Positions 3,990 through 46,331 of a stretch of DNA of 47,068 bases are shown piece by piece. The stretch spans positions 1-47,068 of IMG/VR virus record IMGVR_UViG_3300035199_000718. One strand, written 5' to 3'. Position numbers and translations under genes: made by a program. The number at the start of each line of letters is the position of its first letter. The stretch's first letter is position 1. The notes under the pieces were generated by a model. It made no database searches. It saw nothing but the letters and a program-made list of their open reading frames with translations, and was not told where the DNA came from. This stretch comes from a virus.

Positions 3990-4391
3990 ATGAGTGATTT
4001 GAACGAAGTGATTGTAAGTGGTCGTTTGACTAGAGATAGCGAGCTTCGCCACACCCCTAACGGTACTGCTGTTACCGATGTGATTGTAGCATCTAATCGT
4101 ATTTGGTCTAAAGACTCAGACCGTCAGGAAGAAACTACGTTTGTTGATGTAACCGTCTGGGGTAAACAAGCAGAGTCTCTTCATGAGTATTTAGTCAAGG
4201 GTCGTCATATTATGGTTGTGGGACGACTCAAACTAAATAAGTGGGAAGCGGAGGATGGAAGCAAGCGTAGTAAGCTTACTATGGTTGCAGAAAAAATCAA
4301 CCTCACTCCCGGTGGAGGAAAGTCTAACGGAAACGGATCTACATCAGGAGGAAAGACAAAGGTTAAAGAAAAAGAGGAAGTTCCATTTTAA
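3990..4391 (+). CDS. ssb: Single-stranded DNA-binding protein (bacterial SSB type)
   Basis: A 133-aa SSB with an OB fold at residues 1-110: it opens LNEVIVSGRLTRDSELRHTP, as in bacterial SSB, and contains the FVDVTVWGKQAE and GRHIMVVGRLKLNKW segments. A short Gly/Ser-rich linker leads to an acidic tail ending EEVPF, comparable to the DDDIPF tip through which SSB recruits partners. It would coat ssDNA at the fork and during recombination and contact replication partners through the tail. It is shorter than the E. coli protein (178 aa), mainly in the linker. ATG 3990 follows AGGAG. A terminator lies downstream, so it closes the transcript that begins near 3700. Confidence 0.95.
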   Translation: MSDLNEVIVSGRLTRDSELRHTPNGTAVTDVIVASNRIWSKDSDRQEETTFVDVTVWGKQAESLHEYLVKGRHIMVVGRLKLNKWEAEDGSKRSKLTMVAEKINLTPGGGKSNGNGSTSGGKTKVKEKEEVPF

Positions 4392-15526: not shown

Positions 15527-16509
15527 AGGATATTGTAAAAGAGTACGGTGATGTACTTCACGACCCTGCTTCAATTACCGATGAAGAACTTAGTGTTATT
15601 TCTATAAGTCCTAAGTTAGATATTGCTTTAGGTGGAGGAGTCCCTGAAGGTTCTTTATTTATTATGACAGGGCCAGAAAAGATTGGTAAAACAGTTACTG
15701 CACTAACTTTCTGTGCTAATGCGCAAAGACTTAATAGAAAAACTTACTATGGCAATATTGAAGGCAGGTTAAGGAAGAGGGACATTGAAGGTATTAAAGA
15801 GTTAAAGCTAGACCCCGAGCTTTTTAAAATTATAGGATCTACACAAGGTAATATTTTATCAGCTGAAAAGTATCTGAGTATATTTGATCAAATCATCCAT
15901 ACACAACCACAAACCATATGTGTAGTAGATTCTTTTTCCGCTCTTTCTAGCGATGCCGAACTAACAGGTAATTTAACCGATCAGCAAGTTATGACGGTAC
16001 AAAAAGTACTCTCTAAGTTCTGTAGACGAATCTCAAACGTTCTTCCAATTAATAAGGTTACAGTGGTAGGTATTACACATTTAATGGCAAACGTTTCTTC
16101 TTTTGGTAGACAAAAAACTAAAGTTGAAAAATCCGGTAGCGCACTTAAATATCAAGTCGATGTCAAGCTTCACGCTAGTCACACAGAAAAAATAATGCAG
16201 GGTGATAGCCAAATCGGCCAAACCATTCATTGGCAGGTTGTTACTTCTGCTATTGGACCTCCCGGTCAAAAAGTCACAAGCCATATCAAATATGGAAGGG
16301 GCATTTGGAAGGAGATGGAATTGGCAGACCTGATGATTGATTTTGGTCTTGTGCAAAAATCCGGCGCATGGCTCAAGCTACCCAACGAAGAAAAGCTACA
16401 AGGTAAAAATAATCTTGCTAAGTATTTAGAAGACAACCCGGACAAATACAGCGAGTTTGAAAAAGAAATCTTTTCTATGGTTGGGATCGAAAAAAATGAA
16501 GGTAAGTGA
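15523..16509 (+). CDS. RecA/UvsX-type recombinase
   Basis: A 328-aa RecA-family ATPase. Walker A is GPEKIGKT (residues 50-57), preceded by the LDIALGGGVPEGSLFIMTG segment that opens all RecA cores; Walker B is the CVVDSFSAL strand, and KVTVVGITHLMANV fits the next beta strand with its switch residue. Then come SGSALKYQVDVKLHA and a C-terminal lobe. It would form filaments on ssDNA and drive strand exchange for recombination-dependent replication and repair. Slightly shorter than bacterial RecA (about 350 aa), as phage versions usually are. It overlaps both neighbours, including a nuclease gene downstream. Confidence 0.9.
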   Translation: MKDIVKEYGDVLHDPASITDEELSVISISPKLDIALGGGVPEGSLFIMTGPEKIGKTVTALTFCANAQRLNRKTYYGNIEGRLRKRDIEGIKELKLDPELFKIIGSTQGNILSAEKYLSIFDQIIHTQPQTICVVDSFSALSSDAELTGNLTDQQVMTVQKVLSKFCRRISNVLPINKVTVVGITHLMANVSSFGRQKTKVEKSGSALKYQVDVKLHASHTEKIMQGDSQIGQTIHWQVVTSAIGPPGQKVTSHIKYGRGIWKEMELADLMIDFGLVQKSGAWLKLPNEEKLQGKNNLAKYLEDNPDKYSEFEKEIFSMVGIEKNEGK

Positions 16510-16912
16510 TTTAGAGGGTACAATACACAAGTGGAAGATTGAACAGGGATTTATTAGGTCAAACGATCAAAGACCTCGATCTAAGCTTCACCTAATCGCC
16601 CGCTCTTTGTTAAAAGATATTTATCCTACACTGCAAATCTGTGAAGAAGTCCCAGTTCGGCTAAGGGGTAATCAAAAGATATTTGTTGATTTTTATATCA
16701 ATACTATCAAAACCGTTATTGAGGTTCATGGAGCGCAGCATTATAAATTTAATAGCCTATATCATAGTAGCGCACAAGACTTTGTTAATCAAAAAACTAG
16801 AGATAATAATTTAAAAGAATGGTGCGAACTTAATAACTTAAACTATATAGAACTACCTTTTAACGAGAACCAAGACAAATGGAAAATCAGGATATTGCAA
16901 GAGAGCGATTAG
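16496..16912 (+). CDS. EDxHD/Vsr-like endonuclease
   Basis: A 138-aa protein. ATG 16496 (MKVSDLEG) lies inside the end of recA; an upstream in-frame ATG at 16457 would deepen the overlap to 53 bases. Motif core is FVDFYINTIKTVIEVHGAQH: an Asp on the first strand, then Glu on the next and the HGxxH turn, as in Vsr/DUF559 and EDxHD nucleases of the PD-(D/E)XK superfamily. A similar core occurs in the protein encoded at 35486. No HTH or NUMOD domain is present, so it is more likely a working repair or recombination nuclease than a homing enzyme. Confidence 0.7.
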   Translation: MKVSDLEGTIHKWKIEQGFIRSNDQRPRSKLHLIARSLLKDIYPTLQICEEVPVRLRGNQKIFVDFYINTIKTVIEVHGAQHYKFNSLYHSSAQDFVNQKTRDNNLKEWCELNNLNYIELPFNENQDKWKIRILQESD

Positions 16913-22833: not shown

Positions 22834-23325
22834 ATGATAGAAGTTAAAATTACACCACAAATGAAAAAACGAGCATGGGCCAAAGCTAGGCAAATGGGTC
22901 GACTTAGAAACTCTATCACTCGCGGCAAAGGAAATATAGCGGGGTTTTTGGGGGAAGAGGTTGCTAACGCGCTTATCAAAGGTACTATTAGCAACACATA
23001 CGACTATGACATCTTATATAAAAACATCAAATATGATGTTAAAACCAAAAGATGTACGTCGCCCCCAAAACCCTTTTATGAATGTTCTGTTACAGCATAT
23101 AATACAAAACAAAAATGTGATCGATATGTGTTTGTAAGAATTGAATGGGTTAAAGGCAAATGGGGAAGAGCATGGGTCTTGGGCTGGTTAGAACATCAAG
23201 AATATTTTACAAAAGCTAAAAAACTCAACCGAGGAGATATTGATACGTCTAATGGATATATGGTTAAGGCCGATTGTTATAATGTTCCAATTAATACATT
23301 AAGACCTTTTAGGAGAAGGAAATGA
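22834..23325 (+). CDS. PD-(D/E)XK-type nuclease
   Basis: A 163-aa basic protein with a compact restriction-like core: GFLGEEVANAL (Glu on the first helix), a YDYDILY strand with Asp, and IKYDVKTKR (Asp-x-Lys on the next strand). The C-terminus ends in basic RPFRRRK. This is the minimal catalytic arrangement of phage PD-(D/E)XK nucleases. Its role could be Holliday-junction cleavage, repair or host DNA breakdown. It immediately precedes the polymerase gene and is coupled to it by ATGA. Confidence 0.6.
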   Translation: MIEVKITPQMKKRAWAKARQMGRLRNSITRGKGNIAGFLGEEVANALIKGTISNTYDYDILYKNIKYDVKTKRCTSPPKPFYECSVTAYNTKQKCDRYVFVRIEWVKGKWGRAWVLGWLEHQEYFTKAKKLNRGDIDTSNGYMVKADCYNVPINTLRPFRRRK

Positions 23326-25187
23326 CCTATGTTCCTTTGCATGTTCATTCTGAATATAGCCTGTTGGATGGACTTTCTCAAACCCATCAGATTTCAAAAA
23401 GAATGTCTGATATCGAAACAAACGTTTGTGCATTAACAGACCATGGCAGCGTATCTGGCGCAGTTGATTTTTCTAGAACGTTAAATAATGCTTCTCAAAA
23501 GCCTATTCTAGGATGTGAGTTTTATATTTGTTTTAATGACGCTAAAGAAAAAACTCAAGAAAATCGAAACTTAATTCACCAAGTTATTTTAGCAAAAAAT
23601 TTACAGGGCTGGAAAGACATTTTAGGACTTGTATCACAATCAAATCATCCAGATCAGTTCTACTATAAGCCACGTATTGATTTCAATCAGCTAAAAAAAG
23701 TCGCAGAAAAAGGCAACTTAGTATCTTTTAGTGGGCACTTAGGGTCATATCTAGGTAAGCTAGTAGTAGAAAATGAGTCAGACGATCTAATTTGTACAGC
23801 CGCATTGAAAATGCAACAAATTTTTGGAAAAGATAATTTTTTTATTGAAATACAATTAATTGATTCTGACAACAACGAAACCTCAAGGATTACGGCTGAA
23901 AAATTACGTCAGATTTCTATCAAAACCGGTATCCCATGCGTAGCAACTCCCGATGCTCATTATCCCACTAGAGAGGCCGCAGAGGACCAGCAAGTACTTC
24001 TCTGTACGTCGTTAAAAAAGACGATAGGACAAGTTCAACGAGAATTAAAAGAAGGCAAATCTAGATCTCTAGAGTGCTTTTTTTCTTCAAATAATTTTCA
24101 TATTCCCTCCTATGAGGAAATGAAACAATACCATAATGATGAGGAGCTATCCAATACTGTTTTAATTGCAGATATGTGTGATTCATACAATATTCTCGGA
24201 CCACCCAATCCACCCGAGTTTAACTGTCCATCGGGATACTCTCCAAAAGAATATCTCCGTTATATTTGCAAAATGGGATGGGCACAAAAGATGCAACATG
24301 TTAATAAAGAAAACCCCAAATTCCCACAATATGGAGAACGGGTTAATAAAGAGCTAGAGATCTTTGAAGGAGCTGGCTTATCGAGCTATTTTTTAATTGT
24401 ACAAGATATCTTAAAGTATTGTAAAGATGCTGGTTATTTAACTGGTCCGGGACGAGGTAGCGCAGCTGGTTGTATGGTTTCTTACTTAATTGGTATTACG
24501 CAAATTGATCCAGTTAAATATGATTTAGTTTTTGAAAGATTTTATAATGCAGGAAGAAACACCGATACTAGAATATCTATGCCCGATATTGATATTGATG
24601 TTCCTAAAGAAGCAAGAGAAAAAGTTATAGAATACATTAAACAAAGGTATGGTACAGATAACGTAGCTCAAATTGTTACTTACCAAACCTTGCAAGGTCG
24701 GTCAGCACTTAAACGCGTTATGCAGGCGCGTGGCAATATATCTTTTGCTGAACAAAACGAAATCACTAAACATATTATGGACGAGGCAAAAATTGCTGAT
24801 GAATTACAAGACATGAAAGAGGAGTTGGGCGAGTCATCCTTGATTCTATGGGCTTTAAAAAATAGAAAAAAACAATTAAAAGATTGGTGTGAGATTGGTG
24901 AAAATGGCAAATTAGAGGGTAAACTATCTAAGGTGTTTGAACAGGCTATGCGTATGGAGGGAACCAAAATTATTCAATCCAAACATGCAGCGGGCGTAGT
25001 GGTTTCACCATCACCAATTTCTAAGACATGTCCAATGATTAGATCAGCTGCTAAAGGAGATAAAAATCTTTTGGCGGGATTTGAAGGGCCAAGTTGTGAA
25101 GATGTAGGACTATTAAAGTTGGATGTATTAGGAATTAGAATGCTAGATAAAATAATGGAAGTTCCACAGATACTTAAACAGTCATAG
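23322..25187 (+). CDS. DNA polymerase III alpha, N-terminal part (PHP + palm)
   Basis: A 621-aa protein matching the first half of bacterial DnaE. Residues 1-270 form a PHP domain whose metal ligands look intact: HVH (His7, His9), TDHG (Asp40, His41), GCEFY, SGHLG and PDAHY; in E. coli several of these are lost. The palm holds GPGRGSAAGCMVSYL, the catalytic pair Asp422 and Asp424 in MPDIDID, and the third catalytic Asp601 in LLKLDVLGIRML. The protein stops 20 residues after Asp601, where normal DnaE continues into the fingers. The missing part is encoded at 25861. It needs that partner to be a polymerase. No intein motif is seen at the end. Confidence 0.92.
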   Translation: MTYVPLHVHSEYSLLDGLSQTHQISKRMSDIETNVCALTDHGSVSGAVDFSRTLNNASQKPILGCEFYICFNDAKEKTQENRNLIHQVILAKNLQGWKDILGLVSQSNHPDQFYYKPRIDFNQLKKVAEKGNLVSFSGHLGSYLGKLVVENESDDLICTAALKMQQIFGKDNFFIEIQLIDSDNNETSRITAEKLRQISIKTGIPCVATPDAHYPTREAAEDQQVLLCTSLKKTIGQVQRELKEGKSRSLECFFSSNNFHIPSYEEMKQYHNDEELSNTVLIADMCDSYNILGPPNPPEFNCPSGYSPKEYLRYICKMGWAQKMQHVNKENPKFPQYGERVNKELEIFEGAGLSSYFLIVQDILKYCKDAGYLTGPGRGSAAGCMVSYLIGITQIDPVKYDLVFERFYNAGRNTDTRISMPDIDIDVPKEAREKVIEYIKQRYGTDNVAQIVTYQTLQGRSALKRVMQARGNISFAEQNEITKHIMDEAKIADELQDMKEELGESSLILWALKNRKKQLKDWCEIGENGKLEGKLSKVFEQAMRMEGTKIIQSKHAAGVVVSPSPISKTCPMIRSAAKGDKNLLAGFEGPSCEDVGLLKLDVLGIRMLDKIMEVPQILKQS

Positions 25188-25196
25188 AGGTTTAAT

Positions 25197-25868
25197 ATGA
25201 ACAATCGTTGGATTATAGTTTTTGATTGGGAAACTGACAGTCCAGACCCCACTAGTTGCAACCCTGTAGAATTAGCGGCAATTCCTATTGACCCAAGGAC
25301 TTTAGATATTAAAGTCGATAAGGCGTTTAATGCGACTATCAAGCCGCCGGGAATTACTAAAGAAGATTACTTCACAGATGAAAAACAAAAAACCATTGAG
25401 TGGCACGCAAAGCAAAGAGGTGTAACAAGCGAAGATATTATTAAAACATGGAAGTCCGGTAAAAGCGAAAAGATTGTTTGGAAAAACTTCTGTGAGTATT
25501 GTAAAAAATTTGAGATCGAAAAATCAAGAAACAACTGGTATACAGAACCTATTGCTGCTGGTTATAACATTATAGGTTTTGATTTACCAATTTGTGAGCG
25601 ACTTGCTAAAAAGCATAAAACTAAAATGCCCTTTGCAAAAGTGACCAAGATAGATATCATGGACATGCTATTCTATTGGCTTGAAAATCTAGATGAGCCA
25701 CAAAACATGAGGCTTGATACCATGCGAGATTGGTTTGGTATTAAAGCAGAACAGGCGCACGAGGCATTGTCCGATACAATGGATAGTGCAAAACTACTCA
25801 CGCAATTTATGAAATTCCATCGACGACAATCAAGTGTGGCTAAATTTAAGGGAGCAATGAGTGGCTGA
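25197..25868 (+). CDS. DEDDh 3'-5' exonuclease (epsilon/DnaQ-like)
   Basis: A 223-aa exonuclease of the DnaQ superfamily: ExoI FDWETDS (Asp10, Glu12), ExoII AAGYNIIGFDLPIC (Asp129) and ExoIII AHEALSDTMDSAKLL (His188, Asp193), giving the DEDDh set. It would remove misincorporated nucleotides 3' to 5'. Its gene lies between the two halves of the polymerase, 9 bases after the first and overlapping the second by 8, so it is very likely the proofreading subunit of this enzyme. Between ExoI and ExoII is a longer insert than in E. coli epsilon. There is no sign of a mobile or homing element. Confidence 0.9.
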   Translation: MNNRWIIVFDWETDSPDPTSCNPVELAAIPIDPRTLDIKVDKAFNATIKPPGITKEDYFTDEKQKTIEWHAKQRGVTSEDIIKTWKSGKSEKIVWKNFCEYCKKFEIEKSRNNWYTEPIAAGYNIIGFDLPICERLAKKHKTKMPFAKVTKIDIMDMLFYWLENLDEPQNMRLDTMRDWFGIKAEQAHEALSDTMDSAKLLTQFMKFHRRQSSVAKFKGAMSG

Positions 25869-27507
25869 AGTTTTTGAATGTGGGTGTAAATTTGAAGTGC
25901 TTGGTGGTGATATTATATATGATCCCAACATCGAGACATTACCACTAAATTGCGAGCATACTTGGGATATAATTTCCGAAGGGAATACCAAGGGTGTCTT
26001 CCAACTAGAATCGCAGCTTGGTCGTAGTATGTCAGAAAAGGTTAAGCCTCGTAATATTGAGGAGCTTTCTGATTTAATTGCTATCATTAGACCCGGATGT
26101 ATGGAAGCTATCGTTGATGGGAAAAGTCTCACGCAACACTATATAGACCGTAAGCAGGGCATAGATCCTGTAGAGTATTTCCACGGCGCACTTAAACCAA
26201 TTCTTTCTAGTACCTATGGTATATTAGTTTATCAAGAACAGGCTTTGTTGATAGCTAGAGATATCGGCGGTTTTAATTTGCAAGAAGCAGACATTCTTCG
26301 CAAGGCTATTGGTAAGAAAAATGTCTCCTTAATGGCAGAGTTGCGAAATCAATTTATTGAAAAAGCCGAAGTCAAAGGAACTGTTAATAAAGAACAAGCT
26401 GAAGAAATTTTTGGATGGATCGAAAAATCACAAAGATATTCTTTTAATAAGTCTCACTCAGTTAGTTACGCATACAACGCATATCTTACAGCCTATACCA
26501 AACAACATTTTCCACATGAATTTTTTACAGCATACCTTAAGCATTCTATTGGAAAACCAGATGCATATTTAGAAATAGAGGAGCTAGTAAACAATGCACG
26601 ATTAATGAATATTCATGTTCAACCCCCGAATATTAAACAGATGAATAAATATTTTACATTAGTCATTGACACATTACCAACTTTTGGTATTACAGAAATT
26701 AAGGGGGTTGGTGGTTCAGTATATGATAAAATGGTGCTATGTTTAGAAAAAAATAAAATAGATTTAAAAACATGCGACTGGGACACATTTCTTATTGGTT
26801 TTGGTCCATGCATAAAGGTAGATGCTTTTGAAGCTTTAATTCTTAGCGGTGCTTTAGACTGTTTTAAGATCAGTCGTAGTAAAATGAATCATGAGTTAAA
26901 AATGTTTAGAGAATTAAGTAAAAGAGAGATTCCGTGGATAGAAAAATTCAAACAAGACAATGCCAAGAAAAACTTTACCGATTGTATTCAAGCGATGCTT
27001 GATAAAAACGATTGGTCAAACAGACACAGGCCAATTTTCAGAAAAGACAGGGTTGAGGTTGTAGAAAGTATTATCGACTCTTTAAACAATCCGGGCTATG
27101 AACTGGTGGATTTACCCGGATGGAAAGCCAGACAAGAGGAAAAATACTTAGGTGTTTCGTTAACCTGTGCCAGAGTAGACGAATACGATACCAGCGGAGC
27201 AAATTGTACCTGTAAGGAATATGTGGATGGCTTTAATTGTAAGGGTACAATAAGAATAGCCGCTCAGGTGGATGGCGTTAGAGAATGGAAAATTAAAAAG
27301 GGAAACTCTAAGGGGCAAAATATGGGCTTTGTAACGATCAGCGATGGAACGTGTAGTCTCGACAGTGTAACAGTTTTTTCTGAAGAATGGAATAAATATG
27401 CAAAAGATATTACAGAAGGAAACGTACTATTATTAATAGGTAGTAGAGATAAAAAAAGAGGAAGTTTTTTAATAAAGTCGGTATCTAAGGTTAAAAACCT
27501 AGCTTAG
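25861..27507 (+). CDS. DNA polymerase III alpha, C-terminal part (fingers to OB)
   Basis: A 548-aa protein beginning at GTG 25861 that continues the DnaE sequence where the 23322 gene stops: NIETLPLNCEHTWDIISEG and GVFQLES match the segment that follows the third catalytic Asp in DnaE. Then come IIRPG, KPILSSTYGILVYQEQ, DILRKAIGKK, FNKSHSVSYAYNAYLTAY (fingers), an HhH-like FGITEIKGVGG and an OB-type domain near the end (MGFVTISDGTCSLDSVTVF). The two parts total 1169 aa, the normal DnaE size. The first 17 residues are extra; Cys7, Cys9, Cys31 and His33 might bind zinc at the junction. No clamp-loader-binding motif is obvious. Confidence 0.92.
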   Translation: MAEVFECGCKFEVLGGDIIYDPNIETLPLNCEHTWDIISEGNTKGVFQLESQLGRSMSEKVKPRNIEELSDLIAIIRPGCMEAIVDGKSLTQHYIDRKQGIDPVEYFHGALKPILSSTYGILVYQEQALLIARDIGGFNLQEADILRKAIGKKNVSLMAELRNQFIEKAEVKGTVNKEQAEEIFGWIEKSQRYSFNKSHSVSYAYNAYLTAYTKQHFPHEFFTAYLKHSIGKPDAYLEIEELVNNARLMNIHVQPPNIKQMNKYFTLVIDTLPTFGITEIKGVGGSVYDKMVLCLEKNKIDLKTCDWDTFLIGFGPCIKVDAFEALILSGALDCFKISRSKMNHELKMFRELSKREIPWIEKFKQDNAKKNFTDCIQAMLDKNDWSNRHRPIFRKDRVEVVESIIDSLNNPGYELVDLPGWKARQEEKYLGVSLTCARVDEYDTSGANCTCKEYVDGFNCKGTIRIAAQVDGVREWKIKKGNSKGQNMGFVTISDGTCSLDSVTVFSEEWNKYAKDITEGNVLLLIGSRDKKRGSFLIKSVSKVKNLA

Positions 27508-35038: not shown

Positions 35039-35493
35039 TTGGTATACTTAAAACAAATGTGACGAACAACGACAAAGATTTTTTTGCAATTAAAAATCTA
35101 AACGAACTACGCAATACAAATACGAACACTTGCTTATTTTGTAATCATATCGATAATAAATTTCCACTTCCCGTTTTAACTAACACACTTCAAAGATCTC
35201 ACTGCTACTCTTTCAATGGTATTTTAATAACTGATGATTTAATGAGATCTCAAGACTTAATCAATACGACATATGCTAAAAAAAGATTTATATATTTATA
35301 CCATTTGGACTGGCCTTACGTTCAAAACTTACAATTTACCCATATCAAACGAGTATTTTTAAATGAGAATATTGAATTAATAGCCCGTAGCAAACCACAT
35401 GCGTTACTAATAGAAAGCGTTTTCAAAAAACCTAAATATATTATGAAGGAATGGGATTACCAAACTCTCATCGAGGTAGATCAAAATGAATAA
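35035..35493 (+). CDS. Unknown protein at end of glycan block
   Basis: A 152-aa protein with no family I recognise. It has a CLFCNH motif in its first third and a C-terminal half of mixed strands (KKRFIYLYHLDWPYVQNL). Coupled to the preceding gene by ATGA and to the nuclease gene by 8 bases. Its place in the operon suggests a role with the glycan genes. Confidence 0.5.
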   Translation: MIGILKTNVTNNDKDFFAIKNLNELRNTNTNTCLFCNHIDNKFPLPVLTNTLQRSHCYSFNGILITDDLMRSQDLINTTYAKKRFIYLYHLDWPYVQNLQFTHIKRVFLNENIELIARSKPHALLIESVFKKPKYIMKEWDYQTLIEVDQNE

Positions 35494-36250
35494 AGACGAA
35501 CAAAAGGTCTTAGATATGTATCAAAATAAAAAATGGAGTACGTATCAAATTGCAGAACGTCTAAATACGTATCCAAATAAAATTAGACGCATTTTAACAA
35601 AACATGGAATTGATTTGCGAAATGCTAAAGAGGCACAAACAAACGCATTAAAAAGCGGAAGGTCAAAACACCCTACGGCTGGAAGCCTTATGTCCGAAGA
35701 AACGAAACAAAAAATTAGCGAAACCCAAGGTCAGGTTTGGGATAAATTAAGTCAACAGCAAAAAGAATATAGATCTAAAATTGGTAAAGAGGCATGGTCA
35801 CAAAAAACCGACGAAGAAAAAGCCGATTTTATTGCCCATGCGCAGGAAGCGATTAGAAAAAGTAGTCGTGTCGGATCAAAATTGGAACATTTCTTATTAT
35901 CTGAACTCAGCTCAAGAAAAACGAGGGTAGAATTCCATAAGGAACAATGGTTACAAAACCAAAACCTTCAAGTTGATCTATATCTTCCTGAATACAGTAC
36001 TGTAATCGAAGTTGATGGGCCGTCTCATTTTAAACCAATATGGGGGGAAGAAAACTTAGCCAAAAATATTAAGGCAGATCAGCAAAAAACAGGTTTGGTA
36101 TTAAATAGTGGGCTAGTAATGATTAGGATTAAACAAGATCAATCATTAACACAAAGATTCATGCGAAATACATTAGAGAACTTATTAAATCTTTTAGATA
36201 CAATTAAGAAGGACTATCCCAAGGAAAATGAAAGGTATTTTGAAATATGA
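35486..36250 (+). CDS. HTH plus EDxHD/Vsr-like endonuclease, homing-type
   Basis: A 254-aa protein. Residues 1-40 form a helix-turn-helix (EQKVLDMYQNKKWSTYQIAE then IRRILTKHGIDLR), as in invertases and HNH/GIY homing enzymes. Residues 60-115 contain SEETKQKISETQ and SQKTDEEKADFI, a NUMOD3-like repeat typical of homing endonucleases. The catalytic core VDLYLPEYSTVIEVDGPSHF shares the pattern of the protein at 16496. This architecture suggests a free-standing homing endonuclease, although it may also be a domesticated repair nuclease. It overlaps both neighbours, which argues for long residence. Confidence 0.7.
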   Translation: MNKDEQKVLDMYQNKKWSTYQIAERLNTYPNKIRRILTKHGIDLRNAKEAQTNALKSGRSKHPTAGSLMSEETKQKISETQGQVWDKLSQQQKEYRSKIGKEAWSQKTDEEKADFIAHAQEAIRKSSRVGSKLEHFLLSELSSRKTRVEFHKEQWLQNQNLQVDLYLPEYSTVIEVDGPSHFKPIWGEENLAKNIKADQQKTGLVLNSGLVMIRIKQDQSLTQRFMRNTLENLLNLLDTIKKDYPKENERYFEI

Positions 36251-41864: not shown

Positions 41865-44800
41865 TTAATGATCGGATGCTGGAGGCATCACTGGAATGAA
41901 TGCAGAACTAGTTGCAAGACAATCCTTTATCCAGAGACGACCCTCCTTATTTGTGGGCGTTACACTGAAGTGGGTCGATTGTGAACCTTTAGAAAGCATA
42001 GGACAAGAAGTATTCGTTAAGTTATACTTGTAATCACAATTGCCAGTTTGTGTTAAATTTTGCTCACGACATCCAAAAGGAACCCAAAGCTTACCAGCAT
42101 TTCCTGAATGACCAGCGTGTAATACCATCCAATCTCGCCATAGAAAATCACCATCTGTGCCTACATACTTCCATTGATCAGTATTAAATGGACCTGCAAT
42201 AGTAGGACAGTTACCATCTATATTATATACATCCCAATGAGACAATGTAAAAGCTTCCGGTGTAGTAATGTTTTGATTAGCCTGATAATATGCATTATTA
42301 TATTTAACCTTAGCGCCTATACTATAGGTTGAACTTGCACTGTATGCTGATATATCTTGTCCACAATCTATTAAGTCCCACACTTCAAAACCGCCAACAT
42401 CTACCGTAAAACCATCGGCACACCTCTGTGTTTCGTTACGACTATCATACTGTGTAAATTTATATATTTGTCCATCATTACTAACAACCGCACCCCATTG
42501 ATACTGAACACCACATTCCCACTCTACCCCATCAACATCGACATAAGACGAATTAGTCCTTGCTATATATGCCTGTCCTTCATAAGTAACGCGATCTCCT
42601 ATTACATATTTATCATTTTGATTATATGCTGGCGAATTAACAATAGTAGCCGGATTATTAGGCCACAGATTAGGAAAATTAGGAGCAGTACCTGTTGCAA
42701 TATGTTCGCTTAGTCTAATACCATTAGCTAAAGCTCCTGTTTGTTCAAAAGAAGCTCGCGTTAAAGGAAAATTTCGTATATATAACCATCGGTCTGATGA
42801 CCAATCCATTTCTGGTCGCCAGTCAGGCGTTGCCAAAGCATTAGCTTTGTACATTCCGTTGGACATAAATGCGGCGTCAGTATTAATATTATATCTTGCT
42901 ATATTAGCCCACTCACTAACTGGAGATCTAGATCCAGTAATTTCAGAGCCCCTATGATACCATCGAAGATTCCATCGTACACAATTGGCTACTGGGTTTT
43001 CATTATAGCCAACCTCACGGGGATAGGGCATTGCCTCATTCTGTGGAAAACCAAAATCATCCAAATTTTTATGAACTCCAGTAACATTATCCCACCAAAC
43101 CGCTGCTACTAAAGGTTCAACGCGTTCGTCTAATCGATCATACCCCTCAGACATTGAACAAACATGTACGGCGGGACAGAAAAAATCGGTAGTTATTTCT
43201 TGTACATATGAGCCAACGTTACCTGCCCCACGAAAATCTACATCTATTGTTTTTAGATGAGTAGTATTAGTGTTTTGAGCATATACGTGATCGGCTCGTA
43301 CAGGTCGAAAATTTTTCGCATCGCCATATATACGCTGACCATCTACTACCTCTCCACTATTAATTACTACATTTTCTATATAACTATTCTCCCCGTTCCA
43401 TTCCTTATGTTGAGGTTCATCTGTAGGACGATGACCGGTAATACTATAGGTAAAAAGATCCTCATCTATTACTAGCTCATTGTCTATTAATAATCTAACG
43501 CGATAATTATAGTCTTCTATAACTCCAGAGATGTCACCCAGTGATGAATAAGTCCCCATCGGCCTTCGAGACTTGTTCGCATCAATATCCTCACACTCTA
43601 TTTCGTGCCAAAGAGTGTGATTCTGTCCGTCAACAAAAGCTGTTGTTTGAAAACCGGCTGCACATCTTACATCTGGATCTCTAGTGTCTAAATATCCGGG
43701 TTTATATCTCTTTCCACCGTGTGAAACAAATTTAGTTTTGTAGCTATAGTTTCGTCTACAGTCCCAATTAAATATCGAACTGTCTTCGGTACACGCTAAA
43801 GGCAAGCCCCATCTTTCAACGATCTCAAGATTACTACAGAATCTATGCGGTGTTAAATATCCCTGATTGGGCGAGCCTATTGGCCCACAGTCCGCATCTA
43901 GTGGAGTCACACATCTTACCTGACATCCTCTCCCATCGTATACTTTTGTAACTACGTATCCCTCTGGACAGCTGCAACCTGCTGTGCACCCATCACAGCT
44001 ATCCTCATTATCACATCCATACCACTCACTTAAATCCCTCCCATCACAGCCCACGGCCACTGGGGACTGCATACAACTACGGTCAGTTACGTCGGTACAG
44101 GAAAACCCTTTGTCTCCTCGCCGTGCTTCCTGAAAGACACCCGCCACCACGGAACCGGGCTGAACGCCAGCGCTTGTCCATCCAAACCCATCTGGCATTG
44201 TAGGATAATATCGAGTTTCCAACTTAGTACATAGCGTCGAAGCCATAGCAGCAACATCGATATAGTCTTTTCGGGAATAACGTGGCGCTGTTTCTTTTGC
44301 TCTAATTGGCCCTGAGTCATATACAATAATCATTGAACCATGAATCAGGGGTTTTGGTCGGCCATAAAGTCTTGCTGTATGTTGAAACGTATCAGTATGA
44401 AGAATATCTGGTATAGCATTACCATGAGATGCACAGTTAGCATAACTATATTCTTCCTTCGGTAAAATTCCAAACGCATCTTCGTTATCGTTCGAAACAA
44501 ACTCCCAATCTCCCGCCTCCCGAATGTCCGATTGGTAGAAATAACCCTCTCCCCATACCATATGTGAAGCATCACCCCTACCGGCAAGACCTGTTCCTTT
44601 TGGTCTTCTACCCTGAAATCCAACAACAATACTATCTTTATAAGTAAAATCATATGTAGATTCAGTCTCAGGATTCTCTCCCCAATAACGCGCGCACTGT
44701 AAGTCTGTAGGATCTAGACGTAGAGCTGGCTGACCGTCAACTTGATCATAGTCTTCAGCGCTCCCACCGTTAGATCTATGAAACTGACTAGGTACTTCCG

Positions 44801-46331
44801 CATAATGGATCATACCTAAAACTCGTTTTGGAACTCTAATCGCATAAGAAAATGGCTGTGGAATAGTTCGTTGCATCATCAGACCATAGGTGTTAAGTCG
44901 ATTACAACCACCCTCTATCGTATCGAAATTCCTGTCAAAACCACCGAAAACTGCGTCGACTTGGACATTATCGGTTACCATATCCTTTTCCCATGTCCAC
45001 TCCTCAAATTCTGCTGATGAATGACGTTGGTTGTTCTCTATCGTACTAACTAGATATACAACATTTTTATGAGCACAACCTTCGCCGCAATAACAGTCGC
45101 TTTTTCCTTGCTCTATTTGGAGGCTTCGAGACCCCATAGTTGATGAATAGGTAAGAACGTGGCTATTGCCAAGCTGATCGGAATCGGCTGCTTCAGTTCT
45201 AGTAATCATTCCATCTTCTACAATATTAGTGCTATTACCATAGATATTATCCCAGTTGGAGTGCGTAAAATGTAATTGATATTCATTAGCAGATAGCATT
45301 GTTATTTTACCATCTGGATGACTATCGAAGTCATTCATAATGTCAATTTCACCCCATCCTCTTCCCAGTGTGCCGTCTAGACCTACATAGGTCTGTAGCT
45401 GATTCACAGTACGATAAGTCGCCTTCGGTACATTACCCAGTACCCCCATGTTCACTGATAGAGTTCCGAACTCAGAATATTCTTCCGTAAGCTGCGCCGC
45501 ACCTAAAATCTTAGCAAAGCCAAACTCTGGTGATCCAGTTCCTAACGCATCATCTTTATCGGCAAGTAAGTTATTTCCATGCGGAGGAAAGCCACCTCCA
45601 GTACCTGATATCGGTTGTGCCCAATCTACAAACAATACATAACTATCTGTAAGTTGTTTTGGGTCAGTATAGTTTGACCGCAAAGGAGGTAGAGGTTTCA
45701 TCTTACCCTGAGTAATCAAATTTTCAAATGTTGTTCCGTCACCTTCAAAATCCTCAGTCACATACCAACGATTACATCCGTCAGTTTCGTCATAGTCACA
45801 ATCATACTTCGTAGTCGTTTCAATAAGATCCCCGGACGCAAAAGTATCGCTTGCGTTAAAGTATTTACGACGAGGAACTACAAGTCCGTCACCACCGACT
45901 ATGCTTGCCCAATCCGTATTATGAACCAAATGCCATGCATAAGATACTGGATTGTCATAGGCTCCACTATGACGAGCAGCTAGAGTGACTGTATCCGTAA
46001 GCCAAGCACCGCTAGGAAATTTAAAGTCAACATCATAAAGAGATTTATAAGGATTAAATCTAAAATAGTGCTGATTTTCAGTACTATCCTTTGGAAGGCA
46101 ACACTCCTTGTCAATACATTGATTCGGGTCATTATGGATAAATGGTCCATAATTACATGTATCGTCCGTATAAGAGTTTATATTAGAACGAACATTCTGA
46201 TCCATTCCCGACCAGTGAACTCTCTCACTACTGATATTTAAATTAAAAGGCTGTGCAAGCCAAGGATAATACCCTCCGCACCCACAAGACATGTCTGACG
46301 ACGTTGTGCCCGGACTACCATAATCAGCCAT
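41865..46331 (-). CDS. Giant Cys-rich virion-like protein with carbohydrate-binding modules
   Basis: A 1488-aa protein on the minus strand, starting at ATG 46331 behind AAGGAG. Two modules in the last 300 residues, YNQNDKYVIGDRVTYEGQAY and YSASSTYSIGAKVKYNNAYY, follow the chitin-binding type 3 (CBM5/12) pattern. Mid-protein (about 43.93-44.07 kb) an EGF-like Cys cluster occurs (CDGCTAGCSCPEGY). Dozens of further Cys are spread through the protein, unusual for a cytoplasmically made phage protein. No signal peptide is seen. Probably a tail-fibre, baseplate or surface adhesin. No enzymatic domain recognised. Next upstream gene is similar in style. Confidence 0.7.
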   Translation of the reverse strand: MADYGSPGTTSSDMSCGCGGYYPWLAQPFNLNISSERVHWSGMDQNVRSNINSYTDDTCNYGPFIHNDPNQCIDKECCLPKDSTENQHYFRFNPYKSLYDVDFKFPSGAWLTDTVTLAARHSGAYDNPVSYAWHLVHNTDWASIVGGDGLVVPRRKYFNASDTFASGDLIETTTKYDCDYDETDGCNRWYVTEDFEGDGTTFENLITQGKMKPLPPLRSNYTDPKQLTDSYVLFVDWAQPISGTGGGFPPHGNNLLADKDDALGTGSPEFGFAKILGAAQLTEEYSEFGTLSVNMGVLGNVPKATYRTVNQLQTYVGLDGTLGRGWGEIDIMNDFDSHPDGKITMLSANEYQLHFTHSNWDNIYGNSTNIVEDGMITRTEAADSDQLGNSHVLTYSSTMGSRSLQIEQGKSDCYCGEGCAHKNVVYLVSTIENNQRHSSAEFEEWTWEKDMVTDNVQVDAVFGGFDRNFDTIEGGCNRLNTYGLMMQRTIPQPFSYAIRVPKRVLGMIHYAEVPSQFHRSNGGSAEDYDQVDGQPALRLDPTDLQCARYWGENPETESTYDFTYKDSIVVGFQGRRPKGTGLAGRGDASHMVWGEGYFYQSDIREAGDWEFVSNDNEDAFGILPKEEYSYANCASHGNAIPDILHTDTFQHTARLYGRPKPLIHGSMIIVYDSGPIRAKETAPRYSRKDYIDVAAMASTLCTKLETRYYPTMPDGFGWTSAGVQPGSVVAGVFQEARRGDKGFSCTDVTDRSCMQSPVAVGCDGRDLSEWYGCDNEDSCDGCTAGCSCPEGYVVTKVYDGRGCQVRCVTPLDADCGPIGSPNQGYLTPHRFCSNLEIVERWGLPLACTEDSSIFNWDCRRNYSYKTKFVSHGGKRYKPGYLDTRDPDVRCAAGFQTTAFVDGQNHTLWHEIECEDIDANKSRRPMGTYSSLGDISGVIEDYNYRVRLLIDNELVIDEDLFTYSITGHRPTDEPQHKEWNGENSYIENVVINSGEVVDGQRIYGDAKNFRPVRADHVYAQNTNTTHLKTIDVDFRGAGNVGSYVQEITTDFFCPAVHVCSMSEGYDRLDERVEPLVAAVWWDNVTGVHKNLDDFGFPQNEAMPYPREVGYNENPVANCVRWNLRWYHRGSEITGSRSPVSEWANIARYNINTDAAFMSNGMYKANALATPDWRPEMDWSSDRWLYIRNFPLTRASFEQTGALANGIRLSEHIATGTAPNFPNLWPNNPATIVNSPAYNQNDKYVIGDRVTYEGQAYIARTNSSYVDVDGVEWECGVQYQWGAVVSNDGQIYKFTQYDSRNETQRCADGFTVDVGGFEVWDLIDCGQDISAYSASSTYSIGAKVKYNNAYYQANQNITTPEAFTLSHWDVYNIDGNCPTIAGPFNTDQWKYVGTDGDFLWRDWMVLHAGHSGNAGKLWVPFGCREQNLTQTGNCDYKYNLTNTSCPMLSKGSQSTHFSVTPTNKEGRLWIKDCLATSSAFIPVMPPASDH

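Follow-up and report, generated by a model that had tools for sequence, protein, structure and literature searches.

A polymerase III alpha subunit encoded by two genes

The viral record IMGVR_UViG_3300035199_000718 of the IMG/VR database (positions 1 to 47,068; this whole stretch of 47,068 nt is hereafter referred to as the window) carries the alpha subunit of a bacterial-type, C-family DNA polymerase III (Pol III alpha, DnaE) in two separate genes, with the gene of a DEDDh (DnaQ-like) exonuclease placed between them. Judging from sequence comparison and structure prediction, we consider it likely (probability of about 0.82) that the two chains assemble non-covalently into one polymerase, which would act as the main replicase, with the DEDDh protein as its dedicated proofreader and with the synthesis of the exonuclease and of the second chain coupled. 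The N-terminal part of the polymerase (N half; 621 amino acids (aa); PHP, palm and thumb) is encoded at 23322..25187, the exonuclease (223 aa) at 25197..25868 and the C-terminal part (C half; 548 aa; fingers, HhH and OB; GTG start codon) at 25861..27507, all on the plus strand. The N half is separated from the exonuclease by 9 bp, the exonuclease overlaps the C half by 8 bp, and the two DnaE halves sum up to 1169 aa; the gap, the presence of an overlap and the total length had been given in an earlier note on this DNA, and coordinates, lengths, gap and overlap proved exact on re-checking.

The same note held that the two genes make up one DnaE, the second resuming at the matching place, and proposed an alignment of the halves as a check; domain content and alignment agree with it. 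In the N half Pfam recognised PHP and DNA_pol3_alpha (E 7.9e-71); in the C half it recognised DNA_pol3_finger (E 4.4e-44) together with HHH_6 and an OB fold. When aligned to the DnaE of Thermus aquaticus (Taq), the N half corresponds to residues 7-638 and the C half (from its own residue 24 onwards) to residues 645-948, with no large missing segment; as coverage resumes at 645 after 638, the loss is limited to a linker of some 6 residues at most, and no domain is gone. All domains expected of a C-family Pol III alpha (PHP, a palm bearing the three catalytic Asp, thumb, fingers, HhH and OB) are present and spread over two chains, so that in place of the single polypeptide of DnaE-type enzymes two open reading frames (ORFs) are present in every lineage that shows the order N half-exonuclease-C half (N-exo-C). 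Modelled alone with AlphaFold2, the C half reached a predicted local distance difference test score (pLDDT) of 91.7 and had as top Foldseek matches the Pol III alpha of Taq, Mycobacterium tuberculosis and Escherichia coli. A structure search against viral models also listed a number of phage Pol III alpha proteins of shorter length.

Recurrence of the gene order among relatives

Relatives were collected from IMG/VR by similarity to the N half, C half and exonuclease of the window, and every locus was mapped for ORFs (taking the first ATG, GTG or TTG as start, by which some overlaps are overestimated); since the sample was picked by similarity to the window, it describes how far the layout extends and not its share of all phage DnaE. 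The N-exo-C order on one strand was found at 160 loci (overlapping fetches of single contigs included, which clustering removes), representing 95 lineages at 95% N-half identity and 20 clusters at 70%, on contigs of up to 230 kb and with N-half identities to the window descending to about 36%. An assembly or sequencing error, or a gene in decay, might be suspected behind any split seen on a single metagenomic contig such as the window; this is ruled out by the presence of the same frames in the same order in 95 lineages and by the conservation of the catalytic residues, and we give it practically no weight. The search for this gene order in related phage genomes, which the earlier note had suggested, thus came out in favour of a genuine split.

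The catalytic residues are invariant in both enzymes. Palm residues D422 and D424 (motif PDIDID; codons at 24585..24593, plus strand) and the third palm Asp, D601 (codon at 25122..25124, plus strand), are 100% conserved in 83 relatives, including those with a DnaE unbroken at the window's site (L065 and L067), and the N half ends 20 residues past D601, as had been read from the letters. The middle gene, likewise described beforehand as a DEDDh exonuclease, matched RNase_T in Pfam (E 1.6e-8, better than the curated cut-off) and PHROG 192 ('DNA polymerase exonuclease subunit'), and its residues D10, E12, D129, H188 and D193 are identical in all of 82 relatives (again with L065 and L067 among them). 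It follows from such invariance that selection maintains both proteins in catalytically active form.

The earlier note had envisaged a fixed three-gene layout, of which the order recurs throughout the 95 lineages, whereas spacing and inserted genes vary and two relatives (L067 and L065) differ. For 86 of the 95 lineages, the interval from exonuclease to C half falls in the range of -45 to +30 nt (with an overlap of exactly 4 nt in 33 and of 8 nt in 18), and 0.1-3.6 kb of other DNA intervenes in some members; the interval from N half to exonuclease is far more variable. In the larger subclade the latter is occupied by a conserved ORF of 60 aa that bears the motif [KR][VI]SCC...NA (e.g. L190 7360-7545), one copy of which had no match in Pfam or PHROG, and in L005 by a 115-aa SET-domain ORF (3993-4340). 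In the window, Shine-Dalgarno-like sequences precede the N half (AGGAG, 23311..23315), the exonuclease (GAGG, 25187..25190, overlapping the N-half stop codon) and the C half (AAGGGAG, 25848..25854, within the exonuclease gene), all on the plus strand; of 24 relatives checked for a site of this type ahead of the C half, 19 had one. Translation of the C half is probably coupled to that of the exonuclease through their overlapping stop and start codons, in which case the amounts of both would be tied together.

Two members depart from the order. L067 has the exonuclease upstream of one unbroken dnaE, and L065 likewise has it upstream, with a 4-bp overlap between its end and the start of dnaE, its dnaE being unbroken at the palm/fingers site and interrupted further inside by a split intein. 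A quick tree nested both within the split group; an approximately unbiased (AU) test did not reject a tree in which all split members form one clade without them (p = 0.317), and the unbroken form may be ancestral or re-fused, both being compatible with this test.

Among cultured phages, the exonuclease had no match in 50,697 phage records at 1e-5, and the N half none above about 36% identity. One genome scan for a cellular origin returned relatives of at most 36% identity, titled mostly as bacterial genomes and metagenome-assembled genomes. A permuted transfer-messenger RNA (Rfam RF04321 and alpha_tmRNA) is encoded in L033 (2003-2231), a member of the window's subclade, and hints at a possible alphaproteobacterial host.

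The break site and the fate of the two chains

The unsplit DnaE of L067 (1144 aa; AlphaFold2 pLDDT 92.5) served to place the break, which maps to a coil (residues 631-639 of the model) between a palm helix (618-630, just past the third Asp) and a fingers helix (640-647), so that each chain keeps whole domains. The same loop is also where DnaE is broken in two distant phages (P1201 of Corynebacterium and phiT1 of Rossellomorea), so that separation is tolerated there. Beyond the part alignable to DnaE, the C half begins with an extension (25861..25929, plus strand; about 23 residues in the window and about 20-35 among members) that is present neither in ordinary DnaE nor in the unsplit L067 and carries the motif FxCGCxF, predicted as a beta-hairpin (pLDDT about 87). 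The CGC is conserved in about 92% of relatives, and the codon positions 1, 2 and 3 of the extension differ by 0.36, 0.36 and 0.59, respectively, which indicates that it evolves as coding sequence.

The sequence of events that we favour is that the N and C halves would be translated separately, and that the PHP/palm/thumb chain and the fingers/HhH/OB chain would fold against each other with no covalent bond to give one C-family polymerase, while the DEDDh protein encoded between them would supply the 3'-5' proofreading activity as a dedicated subunit. Two alternatives would instead yield a continuous chain. According to the first, a split intein that has escaped recognition joins the translated halves, as in the cyanobacterial DnaE. 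Split inteins do occur in relatives: L065 (5001-9687) and L172 (11470-12845) carry split-intein parts near C-half residue 198 (FN[KR] followed by C...; in L065 the sequence resumes at SHS), with a nuclease gene beside or between the parts (the ORF next to the L065 intein bears NUMOD3/DUF559 domains), and the DnaE of both is broken by a mobile element at a site other than palm/fingers. At the palm/fingers junction, on the other hand, the N half ends about 20 residues past the D601 motif and the first 20-35 residues of the C half are free of intein signatures; the residue preceding the conserved Cys31 varies between members (N, D, E, S, T, K, V or others), and Pfam Hint, which recognises the L065 intein, matches neither half of the window. 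The absence of an intein at the junction had already been noted from the letters and stands after these searches; post-translational joining is accordingly regarded as very improbable.

According to the second, the halves are joined as RNA, by a group I or II intron that holds the exonuclease ORF, or through translational bypass. Phage polymerase genes with self-splicing introns are known, and a LAGLIDADG endonuclease ORF interrupts the N half of L072-L079 just ahead of the palm PDID motif (L072 6289-7140, and likewise in L073-L079), elsewhere than the junction, from which it appears probable that introns enter dnaE. The interrupted N half had no Rfam match, and neither had the window, a search which introns of undescribed type would escape. 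Against this alternative, the C half possesses a separate start codon, a Shine-Dalgarno-like site and a conserved extension that evolves as coding from that very start, and the exonuclease is kept as an active enzyme across the clade and is encoded outside dnaE in L067 and L065; we therefore hold joining as RNA or by bypass to be quite improbable. Two HNH homing-endonuclease-like ORFs of the window (16457-16912 and 35486-36250) are situated away from the dnaE genes.

The exonuclease as a probable proofreading partner

The partnership of the DEDDh protein with the split DnaE is predicted from gene neighbourhood and is considered probable. If the halves formed a polymerase to which the DEDDh protein did not belong (the latter being a general nuclease), proofreading would fall to the PHP domain or be absent. 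The PHP domain offers some ground for this, as its positions H7, H9, D16, H41, E66, H86, D211 and H213, which by their alignment to Taq we take to be metal ligands, are 89-97% conserved among relatives (L001 carries Asn at the position of D16), and His139 (96% conserved) replaces the Cys found in Taq; the domain may thus itself be active. The exonuclease is, however, located beside or near DnaE in nearly all members regardless of gene order (in L065 with the 4-bp overlap described above), and its C-terminal tail (HRR..SS..KFKG.F) is conserved among relatives, which makes this tail a candidate polymerase contact. Furthermore, in Pseudomonas phage SN (Pbunavirus) an annotated DEDDh gene adjoins dnaE with a 4-bp overlap (ORF56-ORF55), although there, as in L065, the exonuclease gene comes first and DnaE is not broken, and a pairwise profile comparison between the exonucleases of SN and the window was not significant. 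On balance, a DEDDh protein unconnected with the polymerase seems unlikely to us.

Is the split enzyme the main replicase?

The dnaE genes of the window are preceded immediately upstream by helicase and primase genes, and the window as a whole encodes a DnaB-like helicase, a primase, a RecA/UvsX-like recombinase, thymidylate synthase and ribonucleotide reductase. Across 20 records (window included) surveyed for polymerases and clamps, the exonuclease model had one match in each and the C-half model one match in 19, with two pieces in G013 (the record of L172), at its split intein; the match in G008 (the record of L067) sits inside one unbroken frame. Searches of these records for polymerases of family A and family B, with positive controls that worked, detected none.

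Several observations weigh against our interpretation. The 20 records are not known to be complete, and other polymerases may consequently have been missed. A beta clamp (PF00712) was found in none of them, and the clamp pentapeptide Q..[LMI][FLW] was not at its expected site after HhH in the 8 C halves scanned. Moreover, the unbroken palm/fingers site of L067 and L065 implies that the split is not required for function. A clamp motif of GQ type is present in the phage relatives L009, L010 and L018; the search of the 20 records for the T4-type clamp (PF02916) had no positive control and was uninformative. We can imagine that the system constitutes an obligate replisome core of 3-4 subunits, in which the exonuclease (together with the 60-aa SCC protein in the larger subclade) bridges the halves, the CGC hairpin is a new interface, the canonical clamp contact is dispensable and replicase assembly is regulated, yet this elaboration must be regarded as speculative and doubtful. 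Elsewhere in the window, a 1488-aa ORF on the minus strand (41865-46331) has no PHROG match.

Comparison with known split polymerases

The earlier note held that a fixed three-gene polymerase of this kind would be a distinct replisome arrangement. The splitting of DnaE is, by itself, nothing new among phages, several cases being already known (P1201, phiT1, phi13:1, BpsS-140, Anakin and jumbo phages). A close likeness is that of P1201 (NC_009816), whose adjacent and overlapping genes gp59 (corresponding to N residues 1-614) and gp58 (C residues 27-308) have the same palm/fingers break; P1201 belongs, however, to another phage lineage, has no exonuclease between the halves and shows no visible CGC extension at the start of gp58. 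In phiT1 (PV767480), gp20 and gp18 are split at the same loop and annotated as two alpha subunits, but the intervening ORF (gp19, 49 aa) is unrelated and not an exonuclease; since phiT1 falls outside the N-exo-C clade with full tree support, its break is probably independent. Cellulophaga phi13:1, Bacillus BpsS-140 and Microbacterium phage Anakin also encode DnaE in two neighbouring genes, broken elsewhere, upstream of the palm/fingers boundary.

In group 2.2 jumbo phages, the catalytic module of a minimal Pol III alpha is divided between two proteins, which according to Iyer et al. (2021, PMC7824862) are predicted to make up one enzyme together; there the genes are distant from each other, the remaining DnaE domains are lacking and a family B polymerase is present alongside, whereas in the clade of the window the genes lie side by side, no domain is missing and family A and B polymerases were absent from the 20 surveyed records. 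For OM43 phages, a family A polymerase in two parts that are separated by a small ORF has been reported (PMC10580990).

The DnaE of cyanobacteria is encoded in two genes, broken further downstream in the fingers region, and trans-spliced by a split intein; the window shares the two-gene encoding and lacks the intein. A split phage DnaE is therefore not categorically new, while the long-conserved version with the exonuclease gene between the halves is, as far as found, undescribed, no published description of the N-exo-C arrangement having turned up in a partial coverage of the literature.

Bacterial-type replicases are usually taken to be a single chain, whereas an uncultivated group of phages has long kept the polymerase broken (N halves down to about 36-50% identity), with the proofreader gene inside the break. 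As a natural split Pol III, the system has halves that could be reconstituted, and it offers a route to study the balance between exonuclease and polymerase. Moreover, the relatives that have the same break in another setting, are unbroken or are furnished with split inteins represent natural controls for why polymerase genes break at particular places.

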